Positions 15,608 through 26,569 of a DNA stretch of 37,559 nucleotides are shown here, in pieces. Location: NCBI GenBank assembly GCA_022509005.1, contig JAFLUC010000016.1:1-37559 (forward strand), given 5' to 3'. Every line of letters starts with the position of its first letter. The first letter of the stretch is position 1. The position numbers and the translations under genes are program-made. The notes under the pieces are model-generated. The model was given only the letters and a program-made list of their open reading frames with translations. It made no database searches and was not told the origin of the DNA. Source of the DNA: Oscillospiraceae bacterium. GTDB taxonomy: Bacteria > Bacillota > Clostridia > UBA1381.

Positions 15608-16648
15608 TTATTCCGATTGATAATGTATCTCCGCAGACTTATATTTAGCTATTGAATCAGCCTTGACATTCGTCTCTGTTAAACCAATTCCTACCCACTG
15701 CATCCGAGTACCTGTATAGTATATATCTGTGATACTATTACAATCAGCAAATGCGCTCATCGCCATATAAACAACACTTTTCGGAATTCTTATACTTTTC
15801 AGCGAGCTGCAGCCCGATAAAGCATTTCCCTTTATTTTTTGCGCGCCGTTCGGCAGCTCTATACTCGACAGCGATTTACAACCGGCAAATGAATATTCTC
15901 CCAGATTGATTATTGTATCGCCTAATTCTACACTTTGCAATGATGTACAATTATAGAATGCATAATTACCGATTGATGTAACGCCGCTGTCTATAACTAC
16001 CTTTTGTATATCTTTTCCTGCATATGCCGGCAGATTATCTGATGAATAATCCCACATATCACCGGTTCCGCTTATTCTCAGAACTCCTTTATTAACCTTA
16101 TATGTCAGATTATCTCCGCATCTGTTATAATCAACCGTGACAGTCTTGGTTTCCGGTATCCAGCCTACATCTGCGCCCATAGTTTCGGCAATTATACGCA
16201 CCGGTACAAGTGTACAGTCTGTTTCGTCAATGTACGGTGCTTCAGGCATATGATATTCTTCCGCTACTACAAGCAGCTTGTTTGGATCTGTGCTTTCCTC
16301 ATATACGCTGTTTTTTGATTTATACAATGAATGTGAACCAAGATAGAGGTCTATTCTTATGTCCTCATCTGATTTTATTGCCCATATTCTGAACCACTCT
16401 TCACCCGATTCATTTGTTCCCTTATTGTATGAAACAGAGAATCCGAGTGCCTCAAATATGAGTCTGAACGGAACCATTGTAGTACCGCTTCCTATTATTC
16501 TTGGGAAGCCTTCATCAAACACCAGTTTTTCGTCATTTACTACAATACTTATACCGTCATCAGCCGATACCGGAATTGTACAATAACTAAAAATCATCAC
16601 CGCGGATATCAGTACCGCAAATACTTTTTTTATATTTTTGATTAACAT
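15608..16648 (-). CDS. secreted stalk-domain and BspA-type leucine-rich-repeat protein
   Basis: A 346-residue exported protein. It has a signal peptide (about residues 1-29, ending PVSAD), then a copper-amine-oxidase N-terminal-like stalk domain (about 30-175; TMVPFRLIFEALGFSVSY and TLVPVRIIAETMGADVGW are its two hallmark repeats). BspA-type LRR_5 repeats follow from about 190 to 325 (SGVTSIGNYAFYNCTSLQSVEL and similar). Such domains mediate surface adhesion or ligand binding rather than oxidation; no catalytic residues are expected. The ATG at 16648 is chosen for AAGGAGG 9 bases upstream. The frame stays open to 17041 only because it reads through the kinase repeat DNA in another frame. It lies 31 bases after the kinase gene. 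Confidence 0.88.
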   Translation of the reverse strand: MLIKNIKKVFAVLISAVMIFSYCTIPVSADDGISIVVNDEKLVFDEGFPRIIGSGTTMVPFRLIFEALGFSVSYNKGTNESGEEWFRIWAIKSDEDIRIDLYLGSHSLYKSKNSVYEESTDPNKLLVVAEEYHMPEAPYIDETDCTLVPVRIIAETMGADVGWIPETKTVTVDYNRCGDNLTYKVNKGVLRISGTGDMWDYSSDNLPAYAGKDIQKVVIDSGVTSIGNYAFYNCTSLQSVELGDTIINLGEYSFAGCKSLSSIELPNGAQKIKGNALSGCSSLKSIRIPKSVVYMAMSAFADCNSITDIYYTGTRMQWVGIGLTETNVKADSIAKYKSAEIHYQSE

Positions 16649-16679
16649 ATTACATGTCCTCCTTAAAATTAAATATTTT

Positions 16680-18791
16680 TTAATCATATTGTCCGCCCTC
16701 ACCATACTGTGATCCGTGCGAAGCCGATGAGCCGCCGGAGCTGCTGCCGCTTGATGTACTGCCGCCGGAACTTCCGCTTGATGTGCTGCCTGATGAACTA
16801 CCTCCGCTTGATGTACCGCCTGACGAGCTCCTTCCGCTTGATGTGCTGCCTGATGAACTACCGCCGCTTGATGCGCTGCCCGATGAGCTTCTGCCGCTTT
16901 GAGTATTGGTTGAACGATTTGAAGATGTGCCGCCGGATGATTTGCTGCTTGATTTGTTACCAGAAGCCGAAGACGCGTTCCCGCTTGAACTACTCTTCCC
17001 CGCTGCACTGTTTGCCGCCGCGCTTTTTGCTGCCGCTTCATCAGCTGCTATCTGAACTGCGGTATTATAAGCTGTGTTCATATTATCCACTGCCGGCTGC
17101 ACTGTATCTGTATAATACTGCTTTGCAGCCTTCACATCATCTGATCTTTCAGTTGATTCTGCTTTTTCTTTAAAATTGTTTATTGCCGAAGTCAGCTCAT
17201 TCTCCTCATTGGTAAAGTGATCGTGATTGACGGTGTTATCATTCTGAGCCTTTTCAAGCACTGCATTGGCTTCAGATAACAATGTATCAAGCTCTGCCTG
17301 CCCTTCTTCGACTTCCTTTTTTTCTTTTTCTGACATGACAACCGTTACTTTAATTGTGCCGCTGTAGATATTTGTTTCTTTCTTGGAAGTGTCCGCACTA
17401 TATTCATATGTAATTTCAGCCGATCCGACGTCTGAACATAAAATATATATTTCTCCATCTTCATTGACAATTTGCACTACATCGGTATTGCTGCTTTCGG
17501 CATTGATGTCAGCTTCGCTCTCCAAAGACAAAACATCAAGTATTGCCTTTTTACTGCCGTCCTCAAGCTCAAGCTCAATATCATCTGAAACGATTTTATT
17601 TTCTATATGACTGTTTTCTTCTCCGTCTGTATGACTGCCGATTATTTTATAAGCTGCTATACCGATTCCTGCAATAACCGCGATAATGCACAAAATGCAT
17701 ATCGTCACACGAATACCTTTTTTACCCTTGTTATTTCCGGAAGTATTTGTTCTTTTTTCCTTTTTCTGTTTCGTATTTTTTTCTTCTCTATTCAGATTCG
17801 GATTCGTGTTCGGATTCAGATTCGGATTCGTATAACCTGTATTTACCGGATTAATACCGATAAATACCGATGACTTTTTTCTCTTTAAAAGCCTTTCAAG
17901 ATCTGATCTCATATCTTTGGCATTACTGTAACGATCCTGAGGAGAATACGCGCAGGCCTTCATTATGATCCTCGCAAGTTCATCCCCCGCATTGGCAGGT
18001 CTCGGGATAGGCTCTCCTGTCATGCGCCTTGCCATCGCGCTTTCGCCATTTGCAAATGTTCTGTCAGTTCTGAATGGTTCCATGTTATTGTTAAGTAATC
18101 TGTACATAACAATTCCCAATGAATATATATCAACACTTGCATTGTATTCCTGACCTTTATATATCTCCGGCGCCATATATGTATATGTACCCTTTTGAGA
18201 AAGACCTCCTGAGGTTTTCTCCAAGGTTCTGGCAACACCAAAATCACCAAGCTTAAAATCACCTATATCAGACATAAAAATATTACTCGGTTTTATATCT
18301 CTGTGTATAATATTGTGATTACGGCAGACTTCAAGTGCCTTGCAGATATCTATGCCAAGCTTGATAACATCCTGCGAGTTGGGGGCATGCTGGGAAAAAT
18401 ACTGATTCATAGGAGTAAGAAGCTCCATTCTTATAAATATATCCCAGCCTATGCCTTCACTTCTTTTTACAACATCATGGTCCTCATAGCTCACAATATT
18501 ACTGTGTCCTCTGAGCTTTGACATGATCTGAAACTCTTTAATGAACTCTTCAACAAAGCCGTAGAAATATGATGTAACGCTCTGCTCATCAAGATCATAG
18601 TTGTCCTCACGATAGCTTCGAAGCTCGTTTTCATTGTTCGGAATTGATATAACCTTAAGAGCAGATTTCATATTGCTGAAATCTTTTCGTTCAATCTCGA
18701 AAACAGTTCCGTAAGCGCCTCGGCCGAGTTCTCTTGTTATACGCCATTTACCATCGATAGGCTCATATCTCTTGTAATCATTATCTGCCAT
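16680..18791 (-). CDS. transmembrane Ser/Thr protein kinase with Big-like ectodomain and Ser/Gly tail
   Basis: A 703-residue Hanks-type kinase. The cytoplasmic kinase domain spans about 16-300, with the glycine loop GRGAYG (23-28), Lys46, the HRDIKPSN catalytic loop (163-170) and DFG (183-185), all intact. A juxtamembrane region with an Asn/Pro repeat (about 321-334) leads to one membrane segment (about 360-384). The outside part has a Big_2-like beta domain (about 400-480), a helical region (about 485-590) and a Ser/Gly/Thr repeat tail (about 596-703). PASTA repeats, usual in PrkC/Stk kinases, are missing, and no PP2C phosphatase is adjacent. The ribosome binding site is AGGAGGTGAT. It lies 20 bases after the glucosaminidase gene. 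It probably senses the envelope. Confidence 0.9.
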   Translation of the reverse strand: MADNDYKRYEPIDGKWRITRELGRGAYGTVFEIERKDFSNMKSALKVISIPNNENELRSYREDNYDLDEQSVTSYFYGFVEEFIKEFQIMSKLRGHSNIVSYEDHDVVKRSEGIGWDIFIRMELLTPMNQYFSQHAPNSQDVIKLGIDICKALEVCRNHNIIHRDIKPSNIFMSDIGDFKLGDFGVARTLEKTSGGLSQKGTYTYMAPEIYKGQEYNASVDIYSLGIVMYRLLNNNMEPFRTDRTFANGESAMARRMTGEPIPRPANAGDELARIIMKACAYSPQDRYSNAKDMRSDLERLLKRKKSSVFIGINPVNTGYTNPNLNPNTNPNLNREEKNTKQKKEKRTNTSGNNKGKKGIRVTICILCIIAVIAGIGIAAYKIIGSHTDGEENSHIENKIVSDDIELELEDGSKKAILDVLSLESEADINAESSNTDVVQIVNEDGEIYILCSDVGSAEITYEYSADTSKKETNIYSGTIKVTVVMSEKEKKEVEEGQAELDTLLSEANAVLEKAQNDNTVNHDHFTNEENELTSAINNFKEKAESTERSDDVKAAKQYYTDTVQPAVDNMNTAYNTAVQIAADEAAAKSAAANSAAGKSSSSGNASSASGNKSSSKSSGGTSSNRSTNTQSGRSSSGSASSGGSSSGSTSSGRSSSGGTSSGGSSSGSTSSGSSGGSTSSGSSSGGSSASHGSQYGEGGQYD
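16737..16893 (+). repeat. tandem repeat encoding the kinase Ser/Gly tail
   Basis: Degenerate 30-base units are arranged as a 60-base higher repeat. 16771-16800 and 16831-16860 are identical over 30 bases, and the units between and after them differ at a few positions. Read on the minus strand they encode repeated SSSG(S/G)TSSG motifs. This kind of array is prone to length change between strains. Confidence 0.85.
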
Positions 18792-20595: not shown

Positions 20596-21321
20596 TTACT
20601 CCGTAAATCTTTTTACAATATATTCATTCGCCGTGTTCTCCAGCTTATCATCGAGCTCTGAAAGACCCTCAAATCCGGGATATTTATGCTTCAGAGCATT
20701 TCTAAGAATATAGTCGCACAGCTTCGGATTCTTAGGAAGAAGCGGTCCATGCAGATATGTTGCGACAACATTCTTGTAAACAACCCCTTCTACGCCTGAA
20801 TTTTCTTCGTTTCCATAGCCATAAACCACTCTTCCGAGCGGCTTATGAGAGCCTATATATGTTCTTCCGCCATGATTTTCAAATCCGACGATCTTCTGAT
20901 CAATAAAATCCGCTTCAAGAACTATATTGCCTATAAGACGCTTTTTGCCCTGCTCCGTATATATATCCAGTATTTCAAGCCCTTGTATTGTTTCATCCTC
21001 AAGCTTGTAATATTTACCGAGCAGCTGATAACCTCCGCATACGGCAACAAGTGAACCGCCGTTTTCAACAAAAGCATGAAGCTCCTGTTTATGTTCGAGA
21101 AGTCTTGAGCACACAATTTTCTGCTCTCGATCCGAGCCGCCGCCCAGAAATACTATATCTATATCCGATATATCAAAACCTGTATCATCACAGGTGTATG
21201 ATACAACCTCAGCTTCTATCCCGCGCCATAATAGTCTGCGTTTAAGACATTCAATATTCCCTCTGTCGCCGTAAAGGTTAAGGAGATCGGGATATAAATG
21301 CATTATTTTAATTTTCATCAT
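20596..21321 (-). CDS. gatD: lipid II isoglutaminyl synthase, glutamine amidotransferase subunit
   Basis: A 241-residue class I (triad type) glutamine amidotransferase of the CobB/CobQ-like family. The nucleophile Cys is in SLVAVCGGYQLLGKYY and the conserved His is in VVATYLHGPLLPKNP. Paired with MurT it supplies ammonia to convert D-Glu of the lipid II stem peptide to D-isoglutamine. The ATG overlaps the murT stop by 4 bases (ATGA). A second ATG one codon later (21318) is equally possible. Length and order match known murT-gatD operons. Confidence 0.93.
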   Translation of the reverse strand: MMKIKIMHLYPDLLNLYGDRGNIECLKRRLLWRGIEAEVVSYTCDDTGFDISDIDIVFLGGGSDREQKIVCSRLLEHKQELHAFVENGGSLVAVCGGYQLLGKYYKLEDETIQGLEILDIYTEQGKKRLIGNIVLEADFIDQKIVGFENHGGRTYIGSHKPLGRVVYGYGNEENSGVEGVVYKNVVATYLHGPLLPKNPKLCDYILRNALKHKYPGFEGLSELDDKLENTANEYIVKRFTE

Positions 21322-22649
21322 GCCTTCTCTCCCCTCTCAAGCTCCTTAAGCACAGCCTCAGTAGGATACAGCGCCGTATAGTTGACAAGCACATATACAA
21401 CCTCATTGTCTGTTTTAAGCGCGGCCTTAACTGCCTCCTTCATGCTGTCGGTCATCATATCCACATCAATACCGGCATATTTAAATCGCAGAGTTATATC
21501 ATAAACTCTTATTCCGGTTGTTGTAAGCGTATTTAGATTTTCATCCTTTATTTTATGGAAGTCAACATCCCACAGCCATGAAACATCTCTGCCGTCATTT
21601 GCGAGGTCATTGATCGCAATAATAACATCTTTTTTACGCTCATCCGTGTTAACGGTTGATATAGCCTGATTAAAGCCCGCGGGATTCTTTGAAAGACTAA
21701 GAATTACCGGCTTACTGAAGCTGAATTCCTGCATTCTGCCTATCTGTGGCTTATACGCTTTAAGCAGACCCGCAAAATCCTCTGTTCCCTCGCCCGCTAT
21801 ATCCATAGCGGCATAAACTGCGGCAAGATTATATATGTTATAGAAGCCCTTATAGTTGACCTCCATAGGCTTACCGTTTATCGAGAACCTTATTGGTGTT
21901 TTAAGCGATACGTCCTTTACGTCATATTGCGGACGAGGACGCGTGTAACCGCAGTTCGGGCAATTAAATTTTCCAAGCTGACTATAATGATAATACTCAA
22001 AATCAAGCTCCCGACCGCATATAGGACAGAAACGACCTTCCTTGGTATCATCCACCTGCGGGAGAACCTTTTCGGAGATCCCGTAATATGACGCGCTGAC
22101 TCCTTTTTCTCTGCCGAACTGTACGCAAAGCGGATCATCGGCATTCAAAACAAGCTTAACGTTTCCTGCCTCTTTTATAGCTCTCTTGATAATATCAACC
22201 GTAATGTCAATTTCACCGTAGCGGTCGAGCTGATCACGGAACAGATTTGTTATAACCATTATATCAGGCTTAACCTGTTTAAACACGATAGGAGTGTATG
22301 CCTCGTCTATCTCGAGACATGCGTAATCGGCGTCTATCTTTCCGAAAATGCTTGCGGCCTGCAGATATGCTGTCGCAACTCCGCTGAGCATATTGGCACC
22401 AAGTCTGTTGCAGAGCACTTTGTAGCCCTTTGCTTCAAGAGCGGATGCCATAAGATTGTTTGTTGTTGTTTTTCCGTTTGTTCCGCAGGTTACAATAACC
22501 TTCTTCTTTACAATTTTATTTATATCATTTACAAGAGTCGGGCATATTTTAAGTGCAAACGCGCCCGGACTTGATGAGGATTTTTTTCCTATAATTTTAC
22601 CGGCAACAGTAAGGAGCTTACCTGCCCATATAGCGATTAGCTTTCTCAA
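21318..22649 (-). CDS. murT: lipid II isoglutaminyl synthase, MurT subunit
   Basis: A 443-residue Mur-ligase-like ATPase. The P-loop TCGTNGKTTT lies near residue 55. A zinc ribbon is inserted in the central domain (CPICG...CPNCG), and the C-terminal DUF1727-type region includes NDLANDGRDVSWLWDVDF, whose Asp is required in characterised MurT. With GatD it amidates lipid II, which affects peptidoglycan crosslinking and resistance to lysozyme-type attack. The start is TTG at 22649: a stop codon (TAA) sits immediately upstream in frame, no ATG follows in the first codons, and GGGAGG lies about 11 bases away. It follows the clostripain-family gene by 23 bases. Confidence 0.93.
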   Translation of the reverse strand: MRKLIAIWAGKLLTVAGKIIGKKSSSSPGAFALKICPTLVNDINKIVKKKVIVTCGTNGKTTTNNLMASALEAKGYKVLCNRLGANMLSGVATAYLQAASIFGKIDADYACLEIDEAYTPIVFKQVKPDIMVITNLFRDQLDRYGEIDITVDIIKRAIKEAGNVKLVLNADDPLCVQFGREKGVSASYYGISEKVLPQVDDTKEGRFCPICGRELDFEYYHYSQLGKFNCPNCGYTRPRPQYDVKDVSLKTPIRFSINGKPMEVNYKGFYNIYNLAAVYAAMDIAGEGTEDFAGLLKAYKPQIGRMQEFSFSKPVILSLSKNPAGFNQAISTVNTDERKKDVIIAINDLANDGRDVSWLWDVDFHKIKDENLNTLTTTGIRVYDITLRFKYAGIDVDMMTDSMKEAVKAALKTDNEVVYVLVNYTALYPTEAVLKELERGEKA

Positions 22650-22672: not shown

Positions 22673-24586
22673 CTATTTTGATGAAGTGATCCTGCCCTTC
22701 TTGGAATTAAACGAAACAGCATTACTTGTATGCTCTGCTCCGTAAATATCCTCCGCAGTATATGTCAATGCATATTCACCGTCTTTTATTTGTTTCTCGT
22801 TGATTACAGCTGTGCCTATTCCCATGCGCACTGCGCTTCCCTCGACATACTTTGAAGTGTCCTGACCGTATTCCTCATATATCGGAGTGACAACATCACC
22901 CGCTTCAAGCTCTGTGACTTCTCTTTCAGCCATACCGGTATACTTTCCCACGCCCTTCCAGACGCCGAGGAATTTATAGGTTCCTGCCTTTTTTCCTGTT
23001 TTCACTTTTACCATTCGTATATTTTTCAGTTCACCTGACTGTATAACAGGTATTGAATATACATCGTAATCCTTATTACTGCTCACCCGATACATTGAAA
23101 CAGGCGTACCGCCGAGCATGGGAATTTTATTTTTCACTGTATGTGAATATCCTTTTTGTGCGGAATCAAATTCCACAGAATAATCTCTATAGAGAAAAAC
23201 ATATTTTCCTGTGTTTTTGTTATACATGTAATAATTGACTCCGGCTCTCTTGAACATATCTATATTATTTGAAGTCATGCTGAAGGTTCCCGACGGATCA
23301 TAGGATGCATCTATACTTATGTCTTGACTGACCTCATTATACTGCTGCCAAGCCGCGGAATCCTCGTAATTATATCTCCGGTCTTCAACTCCGGGGTTTA
23401 TACAGGTTTTTTCAATGAACTCAAGATAATTTTCACTGTCGCATATATCCCGATATTTGCTTATTTCAGCAGCCTTATAATCAGAGGGATAAAATACGCC
23501 CAGTCCGGAAAGCTCCGTACGGTATTGATTTGTCTTCTTGTACACAACAGCATCGGAAATTGCTGTTTTCAGATTTGAAGCAGCCCTTTCTGATCTGTTT
23601 TCAAGCGCGTCGGCAAGACTGCCTGTATCTATAAGATTTGAATAGCCTTCCCATTGTGAATTTCCGCCGAGATATTCAAGATTATTTAATGAGCTTTGCA
23701 AAGTGCGCAGATTTACATACGTATCTGCAGCATCTGCCATTACCATTGCCATACTGTCAAAGGTTTGCGCCAGCTTTGAATATTTTGTTAAATCAGTTAC
23801 TGCCATTGATACAAAATACTCTTCGGCATCAGCGGCATTATCCGAAACACCATCGCAAATCTCCTTACCTACCTGAGCAGGAGACGCGGAAGGATTTTCC
23901 GATAAGTATTTGAACAGCTTCTTATAATCCCAGCCATCTGACGGAATTATATCCTCTGACGCTACCATATAATCAGCATACAGCGACAGTGCAGAAGCTG
24001 TTTCGATATTTGACATTAAACTCGCGTCAAAGCCTATTATATCCATTTTTACATCAAGGCTGCCAAATGCTGATTTCAATTCATTGAGTGACAAGCTGTC
24101 GAACTTATAATTTGAATCATACGCAACTCCGCCGACAGGTCCGCCGCCATGATCCCATATAACCGTCATATAATGCTGGGCCGGGTAATTTTCAATGCTC
24201 CAGGATAAAAACCCGGTAAGTGTGTCAGGGCTTCCCATGTTCTTTGACGATGACTGATTTATCAGTCTGATACCGTTCTTCTGGACAATAAAATCCTGCT
24301 GATAATCGCTGTATATATCCGATATATCCCATGAACGGCTCCCGCCTGTTTCCACTATAACATTTATATTCTCCGGCAGATTATACGCAAGAGAGCTGAG
24401 CACACGACTTGCGCTGTTATTCTCTTCTTCAAGCTTGGATCCGCACATATAAAGCATAACCGTCCAGCTCTCGCCCGTTGACGCTCTTCTCGAAACCTCA
24501 TCCTGCACGATTACGCCGCTTTTGCATCCGCATAAAAGAAGTATTAATGCTAGCATAACACTAATTATTGTATTTCTTTTTCTCAT
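22673..24586 (-). CDS. clostripain-family (C11) lipoprotein with catalytic Cys replaced by Ser
   Basis: A 637-residue secreted protein of the C11 (clostripain-like) family. The N-terminus is a lipoprotein signal (LLLCGC, probable lipidated Cys21). The caspase-like fold opens with SWTVMLYMCGSKLEEE, the catalytic-His motif is TVIWDHGGGPVGG (His146), and the strand that normally carries FDACLM reads IIGFDASLMSNIETA, with Ser189 (AGT codon, 24020-24022) at the nucleophile position. The His-to-nucleophile spacing is as in active members, so the alignment is secure. It is therefore either inactive, perhaps a binding or decoy protein, or unusual. A beta-rich C-terminal region follows from about 430. 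The ATG at 24586 gives the lipobox at the right place, though its ribosome binding site is weak. Confidence 0.85.
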   Translation of the reverse strand: MRKRNTIISVMLALILLLCGCKSGVIVQDEVSRRASTGESWTVMLYMCGSKLEEENNSASRVLSSLAYNLPENINVIVETGGSRSWDISDIYSDYQQDFIVQKNGIRLINQSSSKNMGSPDTLTGFLSWSIENYPAQHYMTVIWDHGGGPVGGVAYDSNYKFDSLSLNELKSAFGSLDVKMDIIGFDASLMSNIETASALSLYADYMVASEDIIPSDGWDYKKLFKYLSENPSASPAQVGKEICDGVSDNAADAEEYFVSMAVTDLTKYSKLAQTFDSMAMVMADAADTYVNLRTLQSSLNNLEYLGGNSQWEGYSNLIDTGSLADALENRSERAASNLKTAISDAVVYKKTNQYRTELSGLGVFYPSDYKAAEISKYRDICDSENYLEFIEKTCINPGVEDRRYNYEDSAAWQQYNEVSQDISIDASYDPSGTFSMTSNNIDMFKRAGVNYYMYNKNTGKYVFLYRDYSVEFDSAQKGYSHTVKNKIPMLGGTPVSMYRVSSNKDYDVYSIPVIQSGELKNIRMVKVKTGKKAGTYKFLGVWKGVGKYTGMAEREVTELEAGDVVTPIYEEYGQDTSKYVEGSAVRMGIGTAVINEKQIKDGEYALTYTAEDIYGAEHTSNAVSFNSKKGRITSSK

Positions 24587-24638: not shown

Positions 24639-24686
24639 AAGGGCGGTATGTCATCCAAAGCATACGGATGACAGATACCGCCCCTT
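24639..24686 (-). terminator. hairpin after the ferredoxin gene
   Basis: GGGCGGTAT-GTCATCC pairs with GGATGAC-AG-ATACCGCCC, a 16-bp stem with a 2-base bulge and an 8-base loop, followed on the minus strand by CTTTATTT. The T-tract is imperfect, so some readthrough into the downstream lipoprotein gene, which has no evident promoter of its own, is plausible. Confidence 0.7.
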
Positions 24687-24698
24687 CACGATATTAGA

Positions 24699-24872
24699 TC
24701 ATTCTGCTGCCGGTGCGCCAACCGGGCATGCGCCTTCGCAAGCACCACACTCAACACATGTATCTGCATCGATTATGTATGCTGCATCACCCTCTGAAAT
24801 CGCACTAACAGGGCATTCAGCTGCGCAAGCACCACAGCTGATGCATGTATCCGCATCAATTTTATAAGCCAT
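24699..24872 (-). CDS. 2[4Fe-4S] ferredoxin
   Basis: A 57-residue clostridial-type ferredoxin, a low-potential electron carrier for anaerobic metabolism. Two CX2CX2CX3CP motifs are complete (CISCGACAAECP at residues 10-21 and CVECGACEGACP at 39-50), each half preceded by the same IDADT sequence, showing the internal duplication typical of the family. A near-perfect AAGGAGGT ribosome binding site lies 6 bases before the ATG. It is monocistronic, with its own sigma-A promoter and a hairpin downstream, consistent with high expression. Confidence 0.96.
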   Translation of the reverse strand: MAYKIDADTCISCGACAAECPVSAISEGDAAYIIDADTCVECGACEGACPVGAPAAE

Positions 24873-25008: not shown

Positions 25009-26106
25009 TCAGTTATCCTTATGGTCTGTCTGATGAGGTCTTTTTTTGTAACGTCTTGTACGGTTTGGTTTAACTGGACCCTTACGCTCCGTTCCCTTGT
25101 TCTCCTGTATAGGATCTTTTACTTTTTTCTCTGATTGTTTCGGTTTTTTATCCTTGTTATCATCAGTTCTCTGTTTGTATCTATTGTTTTTATGCTGATG
25201 CTTTTTCTTATCGGAAGGCTTTGGTTCATTAAACGAATCTGCCATCACCATCATATCTGGCAATATTTCATCCTCAGGCTTTGCATCGCTGCGCGCCTCT
25301 CCCGGCGGTGTTATTTCAGAAACATCAAAATCCTTCATAACAGTTTCTTCGTTTTTCTCAAAGCGTACCTTTACTCTTCCTTGGAGAAGAGCCACGCTTG
25401 CGACTGTTCCCTCACCTTCGGGGGTGTTTACTGTTGAGCCGACTTTTGGAGATTCTGCGATAAGCTCCTCATATGTGTCCTGTTCATATTTAAGGCAGCA
25501 CATAAGCCTGCCGCACGCGCCTGAAATCTTCGACGGATTAAGCGAGAGTCCTTGCTCCTTTGCCATCTTTATTGATACCGGAACAAATTCGCCAAGGAAC
25601 TGGGAGCAGCACAGGTTTCTTCCGCATACTCCGATTGAACCTAACGTTTTCGATTCATCTCTTACGCCTATCTGCCTCAGCTCTATCCGTGTTCTGAACA
25701 CAGCCGCGAGATCTTTTACAAGCTCACGGAAATCCACTCTGCCGTCAGCAGTAAAGTAAAACAGTATCTTGCTTCCGTCAAATGTATATTCAACCTCTAT
25801 CAGCTTCATATCGAGGTGGTGATCCGCTATCTTTTCAAGACATATTCTATATGCCTCTTTTTCCTTTTCCTTATTATCCTTATAGCGCTCGGTATCTTCA
25901 TCAGTTGCTATGCGCAATACCGACTTCAGCGGTTTCACTACAACAGCTTCATCAACCTCTTTAACACCGAGCGTTACCTCTCCGTATTCAACGCCGTGAC
26001 TTGTTTCCACAATCACGTGCATACCGCGCTTTATATCAAGGTCCAAAGGATCGAAATAATACATCTTTCCGACCGGTTTAAACCTAACTCCTATAATCTT
26101 AGTCAT
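25009..26106 (-). CDS. ricT: RicT (YaaT), PSP1-domain subunit of the Y-complex
   Basis: A 365-residue RicT/YaaT protein. The PSP1 domain (about 1-270) contains the cysteine motifs GVCGRNLCCSQFLGEF and GACGRLMCCLKYE, which in the Bacillus RicAFT complex help hold [4Fe-4S] clusters and regulate RNase Y-dependent mRNA maturation, sporulation and biofilm formation. A strongly basic, Lys/Pro/Gln-rich tail (about 290-365) extends beyond the core and may contact RNA. I start it at the ATG at 26106 with AAAGGA 6-7 bases upstream, rather than the in-frame GTG at 26121. It overlaps the preceding membrane-protein gene by 8 bases. Confidence 0.92.
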   Translation of the reverse strand: MTKIIGVRFKPVGKMYYFDPLDLDIKRGMHVIVETSHGVEYGEVTLGVKEVDEAVVVKPLKSVLRIATDEDTERYKDNKEKEKEAYRICLEKIADHHLDMKLIEVEYTFDGSKILFYFTADGRVDFRELVKDLAAVFRTRIELRQIGVRDESKTLGSIGVCGRNLCCSQFLGEFVPVSIKMAKEQGLSLNPSKISGACGRLMCCLKYEQDTYEELIAESPKVGSTVNTPEGEGTVASVALLQGRVKVRFEKNEETVMKDFDVSEITPPGEARSDAKPEDEILPDMMVMADSFNEPKPSDKKKHQHKNNRYKQRTDDNKDKKPKQSEKKVKDPIQENKGTERKGPVKPNRTRRYKKRPHQTDHKDN

Positions 26107-26569
26107 TTTTATTCCTTTCACAGTCTATCTTTGCTATAAACTTTTCCGACGGCTGTATTATGACGCCGCGCTTTTCACCTTCCTTATCGGTGAATTCTAT
26201 AAATAACAGCTTCTTAGTGCTGAAAACTGTTTTCCTCATATTATACGGGCGCTTCGGAAATGCTGCCGGTCTTTTGCCATAGCTCGTATTCGTTATATTT
26301 TTACATAACAGCTCGATCTCTTTATTGCGCTTGCCGATCATCCGGTTCACTCGCAGCCTGCCCGATTTTACTGTATATGTAAATCTTGCGGAATATCTTG
26401 TCATCACAAAAAAGCCGAAAACGCAGAATACCAGAATCGAAATGACTCCGCCTGCGAAATAATAGCTTCGGAAGAGGGTCATGATTATACCGCATACAAA
26501 ATACAGCGCCGCAGCCCACAGCATGGCAAAACCGAATTCCTTTCCGCCTGCCGTAACCTCCTCTTTCAT
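26099..26569 (-). CDS. small membrane protein, PH-domain-like, unknown function
   Basis: A 156-residue protein with two hydrophobic segments (about residues 15-34 and 38-57) followed by a soluble beta-rich part (about 62-150; FTYTVKSGRLRVNRMIGKR, KLLFIEFTDKEGEKRGVIIQPSEKFI) that resembles bacterial PH-like domains. No function is assigned. The ATG at 26569 is preceded by AGGCGGTG. The in-frame ATG at 26599 would coincide with the predicted transcription start and is rejected. It is co-transcribed with ricT. Confidence 0.72.
   Translation of the reverse strand: MKEEVTAGGKEFGFAMLWAAALYFVCGIIMTLFRSYYFAGGVISILVFCVFGFFVMTRYSARFTYTVKSGRLRVNRMIGKRNKEIELLCKNITNTSYGKRPAAFPKRPYNMRKTVFSTKKLLFIEFTDKEGEKRGVIIQPSEKFIAKIDCERNKND

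Follow-up and report, generated by a model that had tools for sequence, protein, structure and literature searches.

Clostripain and PmC11 are clan CD cysteine peptidases of MEROPS family C11, with a catalytic His-Cys dyad. PmC11 was made inactive by C179A (PMC4850288), and in another C11 enzyme, PNT1, a Cys-to-Ser change (C136S) prevented complementation and inactivated the protein in vivo (PMC4850289). The S1-pocket Asp of PmC11 is Asp177 (PMC4850288). Dead proteins are known from another family of clan CD: the pseudo-orthocaspases (family C14, PMC6426788) are prokaryotic pseudoproteases in which Cys changed to Ser, His was lost, and the changes are fixed in lineages. They have a caspase p20 domain instead of a C11 domain and are found mostly in Cyanobacteria and Alphaproteobacteria. 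Degenerate LytM regulators (EnvC, NlpD, and DipM), which have an unrelated metallopeptidase fold, are extracytoplasmic dead peptidases that dock wall hydrolases; inactive LytM peptidase domains regulate autolysins, as for DipM (PMC10336132). A literature search limited to non-subscription papers turned up no description of a pseudoprotease lineage in family C11.

We analyzed a 37,559-nucleotide stretch of DNA from an Oscillospiraceae bacterium (the window). It encodes a protein, here called pseudo-C11 (Table 1), that a sequence-only reading had described as a clostripain-family lipoprotein with the His motif WDHGGG intact and with Ser in place of the catalytic Cys (FDASLM). That description holds. 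The same reading left two options, a pseudoenzyme or a rare Ser-variant enzyme, and our comparison with relatives argues for the first: pseudo-C11 very probably represents a conserved pseudoprotease lineage, with catalysis lost across a whole bacterial family.

Table 1. Features of the pseudo-C11 gene and of its neighbors, with positions in the window.
Feature	Positions	Strand	Evidence
Pseudo-C11 lipoprotein gene	22673..24586	-	ATG at 24586, stop at 22673; 637 aa; open frame with lipobox and Pfam PF03415
Lipoprotein signal peptide, lipobox LCGC, Cys21 (codon 24524-24526)	24524..24586	-	Sequence; Cys21 in 36/36 orthologues
C11 (caspase-like) domain, residues 39-395	23402..24472	-	Pfam; Foldseek top matches 6mzo, 6nag, 9cip, all C11
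His146 in WDHGGG, catalytic-His position	24149..24151	-	In 11/36 orthologues and 37/37 intact C11
Ser189 (AGT) in FDASLM, nucleophile-Cys position	24020..24022	-	Ser in 23/36 and Cys in 2/36 orthologues (both without His); Cys in 37/37 intact C11
Asp187, equivalent of PmC11 S1-pocket Asp177	24026..24028	-	In 36/36 orthologues and 37/37 intact C11
C-terminal beta-strand-rich domain, residues 396-637, no known family	22676..23401	-	No Pfam hit above the cut-off and no PDB hit by sequence
Intrinsic terminator of upstream ferredoxin gene	24639..24685	-	Fold -32.5 kcal/mol, z -5.3, then UUUAUUU
Gene for a small 2x[4Fe-4S] ferredoxin (57 aa), probably in a unit of its own	24699..24872	-	Translation, two CxxCxxC motifs
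ricT (PSP1/YaaT family), constant upstream neighbor	25009..26121	-	NCBIfam RicT_YaaT 319.5 bits; upstream in 35/36 orthologue loci
Small membrane protein, ~160 aa, usually in front of ricT and pseudo-C11	26099..26599	-	No Pfam or NCBIfam match
murT, lipid II isoglutaminyl synthase subunit	21318..22649	-	Pfam MurT_C; directly downstream in 15/15 genus members
gatD, glutaminase subunit of MurT's synthase	20596..21321	-	Pfam GATase_3, NCBIfam GatD; adjoins murT in 13/15 genus members
SagB-like glucosaminidase, Big_2 domains, N-terminal membrane segment	18812..20590	-	Pfam Glucosaminidase and Big_2; 15/15 genus members

A lipoprotein with a C11 fold

By its sequence, the window's protein is a member of the C11 fold family and not of the active C11 peptidases: the His-Cys dyad is absent, with Ser for Cys. 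It matches Peptidase_C11 (PF03415) at 134.7 bits (the Pfam cut-off is 25.8), and all 23 of the orthologues that were scanned also match this family. It does not qualify as clostripain proper, scoring 35.5 bits versus a cut-off of 550 for the NCBIfam equivalog TIGR02806. Its signal peptide and lipobox Cys21 mark it as a bacterial lipoprotein. In the family profile alignment, Ser189 takes the place of the nucleophile Cys in clostripain (9cip, FDACLM), 6mzo, and 6n9j, and there is no other Cys at the nucleophile position (the neighborhood is F186-D187-A188-S189-L190-M191); a shifted alignment that hides a Cys at this site was rejected.

Structure prediction agrees with the family assignment. A full-length AF2 model, built from four sequences, is of poor overall quality (mean pLDDT 59.8); the C11 part is better than the rest, with many blocks at pLDDT 60-90. 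The confident structural matches of this model are C11 structures only (6mzo, 6nag, 9cip, and others), and the best Foldseek match is 6mzo (E = 1e-17, TM to target 0.71). The C-terminal domain is also found in intact C11 proteins of other Clostridia; a model of this domain (mean pLDDT 44.7) was too poor for a fold search. A search for viral relatives found none.

In common with clostripain and PmC11, pseudo-C11 has the fold, the PF03415 domain, and the S1 Asp before the nucleophile, while the HG motif is common to only part of the pseudo-C11 lineage. It differs from them in that the Cys is replaced, and often the His too, and in having a lipid anchor and an extra C-terminal beta-rich domain. 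In layout it resembles intact C11 proteins from other families of Clostridia, many of which are full-length lipoproteins with a signal peptide, C11 domain, and C-terminal domain. Those that are largely alike in layout, often with a lipobox (L109-L128 and L035), all have His and Cys and, unlike pseudo-C11, none of them lies beside ricT.

Loss of the catalytic dyad

We collected 36 full-length orthologues (the window's protein and 35 others), from 36 genomes in eight genera, among 70 genomes of the bacterial family that the window's genome belongs to. For comparison, we used 37 other C11 homologues, 20 of which were sampled across the same class (Clostridia-type genomes). All 37 of these have both the His and the Cys, versus none of the 36 orthologues. 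Site 146 of the orthologues is H (11), A (7), Q (5), E (4), D (4), S (3), or G (2), and site 189 is S (23), G (5), P (3), C (2), A (2), or N (1). Both carriers of Cys189 (L010 and L023) lack His146. Conversely, the 11 orthologues that keep His146 always pair it with Ser189, and another 12 have Ser189 without His146. Within the window's genus, and at one syntenic locus, the residues at sites 146 and 189 are His+Ser, Ser+Cys, Glu+Gly, Asp+Gly, or Asp+Asn, and the conserved role can therefore do without the dyad. We also asked if the mutual exclusion of His and Cys could reflect selection against activity; with only two Cys members, it is not significant (chance of about 0.2, from the first 23 sequences).

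A sequencing error behind Ser189 is ruled out by relatives with Ser in both AGC and AGT codons. Where site 189 is Ser, its codon is AGY in the window's genus and in L018, and TCN in three other genera. Because these two groups of codons are not one step apart, Ser189 likely arrived at least twice independently.

In a tree that was computed without the two catalytic columns, the 36 orthologues form one clade (support 94/92). (The joining of the long branches L074 and L035 may be an artefact, which does not affect the 36-member clade.) Over the whole tree, site 189 changed at least 10 times and site 146 at least 12 times. For close pairs of orthologues with measurable dS, dN/dS was 0.04-0.14, so this is a maintained protein and not a decaying pseudogene. 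Overall, the lineage is monophyletic, it is under purifying selection, and its catalytic residues are gone, as expected for a lineage of pseudoenzymes.

Much else is retained. The lipobox Cys, Asp157, and Asp187 are found in all 36 orthologues, Gly147 is found in 35, and Tyr46 is likewise kept. Besides sites 146 and 189, the clearest position that is fixed in intact C11 proteins and lost here is Trp144, which is missing from about half of the orthologues. There are also new near-fixed positions, among them Leu165, Pro232, Cys244, and Leu272. Cys244 (codon 23855-23857) is present in 35 of 36 orthologues and is variable in intact C11 proteins. We considered a disulfide or an alternative nucleophile involving Cys244 and Cys48 (codon 24443-24445), but several members with Cys244 lack Cys48, so there is no conserved pair, and none of the possible partner Cys residues is as conserved as Cys244.

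Two other C11 genes turned up in these comparisons. L074 (G075:C32) is a second, intact full-length C11 lipoprotein with His and Cys, in a genome whose pseudo-C11 has Ala and Pro at the two catalytic sites. G239:C1:202625-203686 is a C11 homologue with one in-frame TGA, which is either a broken gene or an assembly error.

Gene neighborhood and a possible role at the cell wall

The sequence-only reading had placed pseudo-C11 at the head of an operon for cell wall modification. This stands for the window's genus but not for other genera, in which the constant neighbor is ricT. Of the 36 orthologue loci, 35 have ricT as the direct upstream neighbor. In the window, a ferredoxin gene and a strong terminator stand between ricT and the C11 gene, which therefore probably starts its own transcription unit, and murT starts 23 bases past the C11 stop. 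(A perfect sigma-70 consensus, TTGACA-17-TATAAT at 26634-26606, is in front of the gene for the small membrane protein.) Within this genus, pseudo-C11, murT, gatD, and the gene for the SagB-like glucosaminidase (176.5 bits for NCBIfam SagB, under the cut-off of 425) likely form an operon. Outside the genus, murT, gatD, and the glucosaminidase gene form a cluster that is separate from pseudo-C11. Across the family, murT is present in 35 of the 36 genomes with the pseudoprotease versus 7 of the 34 genomes without it; this co-occurrence follows phylogeny, may be mere shared ancestry, and is weak evidence.

In two genus members, L052 and L053 (G012 and G008), gatD is absent between murT and the glucosaminidase gene and is on another contig, with murT still beside pseudo-C11. 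One SagB-like glucosaminidase gene (G014:C39:57643-59397) has an in-frame TAG, from a broken gene or an assembly error. Also, an LRR / Cu_amine_oxidase_N open reading frame in the window (15608-17041, minus strand) shares 362 bases with the upstream kinase open reading frame; it looks likelier that translation begins at an internal start leading into a signal peptide (MIKKYLILRR... or MLIKNIKKVF...).

We propose that pseudo-C11 descends from active C11 proteins of like layout and kept the fold, the membrane anchor, and the S1-pocket Asp. It most likely acts on the outer face of the membrane, by binding instead of cutting. The intact caspase-like pocket and the C-terminal beta-rich domain may dock a partner, which could be a wall enzyme or a stretch of basic peptide, and this docking would scaffold or regulate the turnover of peptidoglycan. 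By analogy with EnvC and DipM, the first candidate for a partner is the co-encoded SagB-like glucosaminidase. The analogy is a working one: the partners of the LytM regulators were shown experimentally, whereas those of pseudo-C11 are suggested by gene neighborhood only. A role as a scaffold or regulator at the cell wall is plausible, and we lean modestly towards this explanation as a whole (a pseudoprotease that binds and so affects peptidoglycan turnover). The step that names a wall partner is a guess and, taken by itself, is rather unlikely to be correct.

It is also possible, if somewhat doubtful, that pseudo-C11 is a pseudoprotease unconnected with the cell wall. It could be a surface sensor or a binding lipoprotein that is associated with the ricT locus or with nutrient peptides, and the proximity of murT-gatD would then be incidental. 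Indeed, murT-gatD-SagB is adjacent in just the window's genus, while elsewhere the fixed neighbors, in nearly all loci, are ricT and the small membrane protein, neither of which points to the wall. Also, some genomes of genus g15 (G068, G070, G076, G077, G079, and G080) keep murT-gatD-SagB without pseudo-C11, which are apparent losses of the latter. On the other hand, the genes retain the order C11-murT-SagB in 15 of 15 genomes of the genus despite C11 identities of only about 40-55%, and in genus g4, the murT-gatD-SagB cluster is about 8 kb upstream of pseudo-C11 on the same strand. Furthermore, ricT has a housekeeping role in the cytosol, and in the window its unit is separated from that of pseudo-C11 by a terminator.

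Residual activity, paralogues, and implications

The rare Ser-variant enzyme that had been suggested for the window's protein is very unlikely. This could be a true serine peptidase, in which the Ser-His dyad of the His146+Ser189 subset (10 members from the window's genus and L018) cuts slowly or acts on a special substrate, the activity having been lost later in members that lack His. In favor of this, and against all orthologues being pseudoproteases, the 11 members with His and Ser keep the whole active-site neighborhood: every orthologue that keeps His has Ser, and W144, D145, G147, G149, D187, and P215 are invariant in these 11. The combination is also found in two distant lineages, as L018 is just 36% identical. 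However, 12 members have the Ser without the His, and relatives from the same genus and the same locus have Asp or Glu with Gly, or Asp with Asn, so the orthologous role needs no dyad. Within the genus subclade, ~39% of the domain columns (140/358) are equally conserved, which makes the retention of both residues unremarkable, and the same substitution, C136S, inactivated PNT1. Hence we would be very surprised if the His+Ser subset were a serine version of C11, that is, a clan CD fold with a Ser-His dyad whose nucleophile was swapped in nature.

Pseudo-C11 is present as a single copy in 15 of the 16 genomes of the genus, and in 12 of those 15 it is the sole C11 protein. The window's genome has one intact C11 protein of another type elsewhere (L002, with WDHGGG and FDACLM), and a second C11 of this type also occurs in G001 and G009. 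It is highly unlikely that pseudo-C11 serves an active C11 paralogue as a regulatory subunit or decoy, in the way that cFLIP serves caspase-8, since a conserved function cannot depend on a paralogue that most of these genomes lack, and incomplete assemblies could account for a few of the absences but not all of them.

If pseudo-C11 is a pseudoprotease lineage, as we believe, then a layout that looks active across Clostridia is dead in one family, always at the same locus, where both residues were lost repeatedly, which is a clean case. It would offer a natural setting for testing how secreted proteases become binding proteins. It is also a warning against annotating pseudo-C11 genes as clostripain proteases. 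And should its connection with MurT-GatD and the SagB-like glucosaminidase prove true, pseudo-C11 would add an unrecognized regulator of the Gram-positive cell wall.
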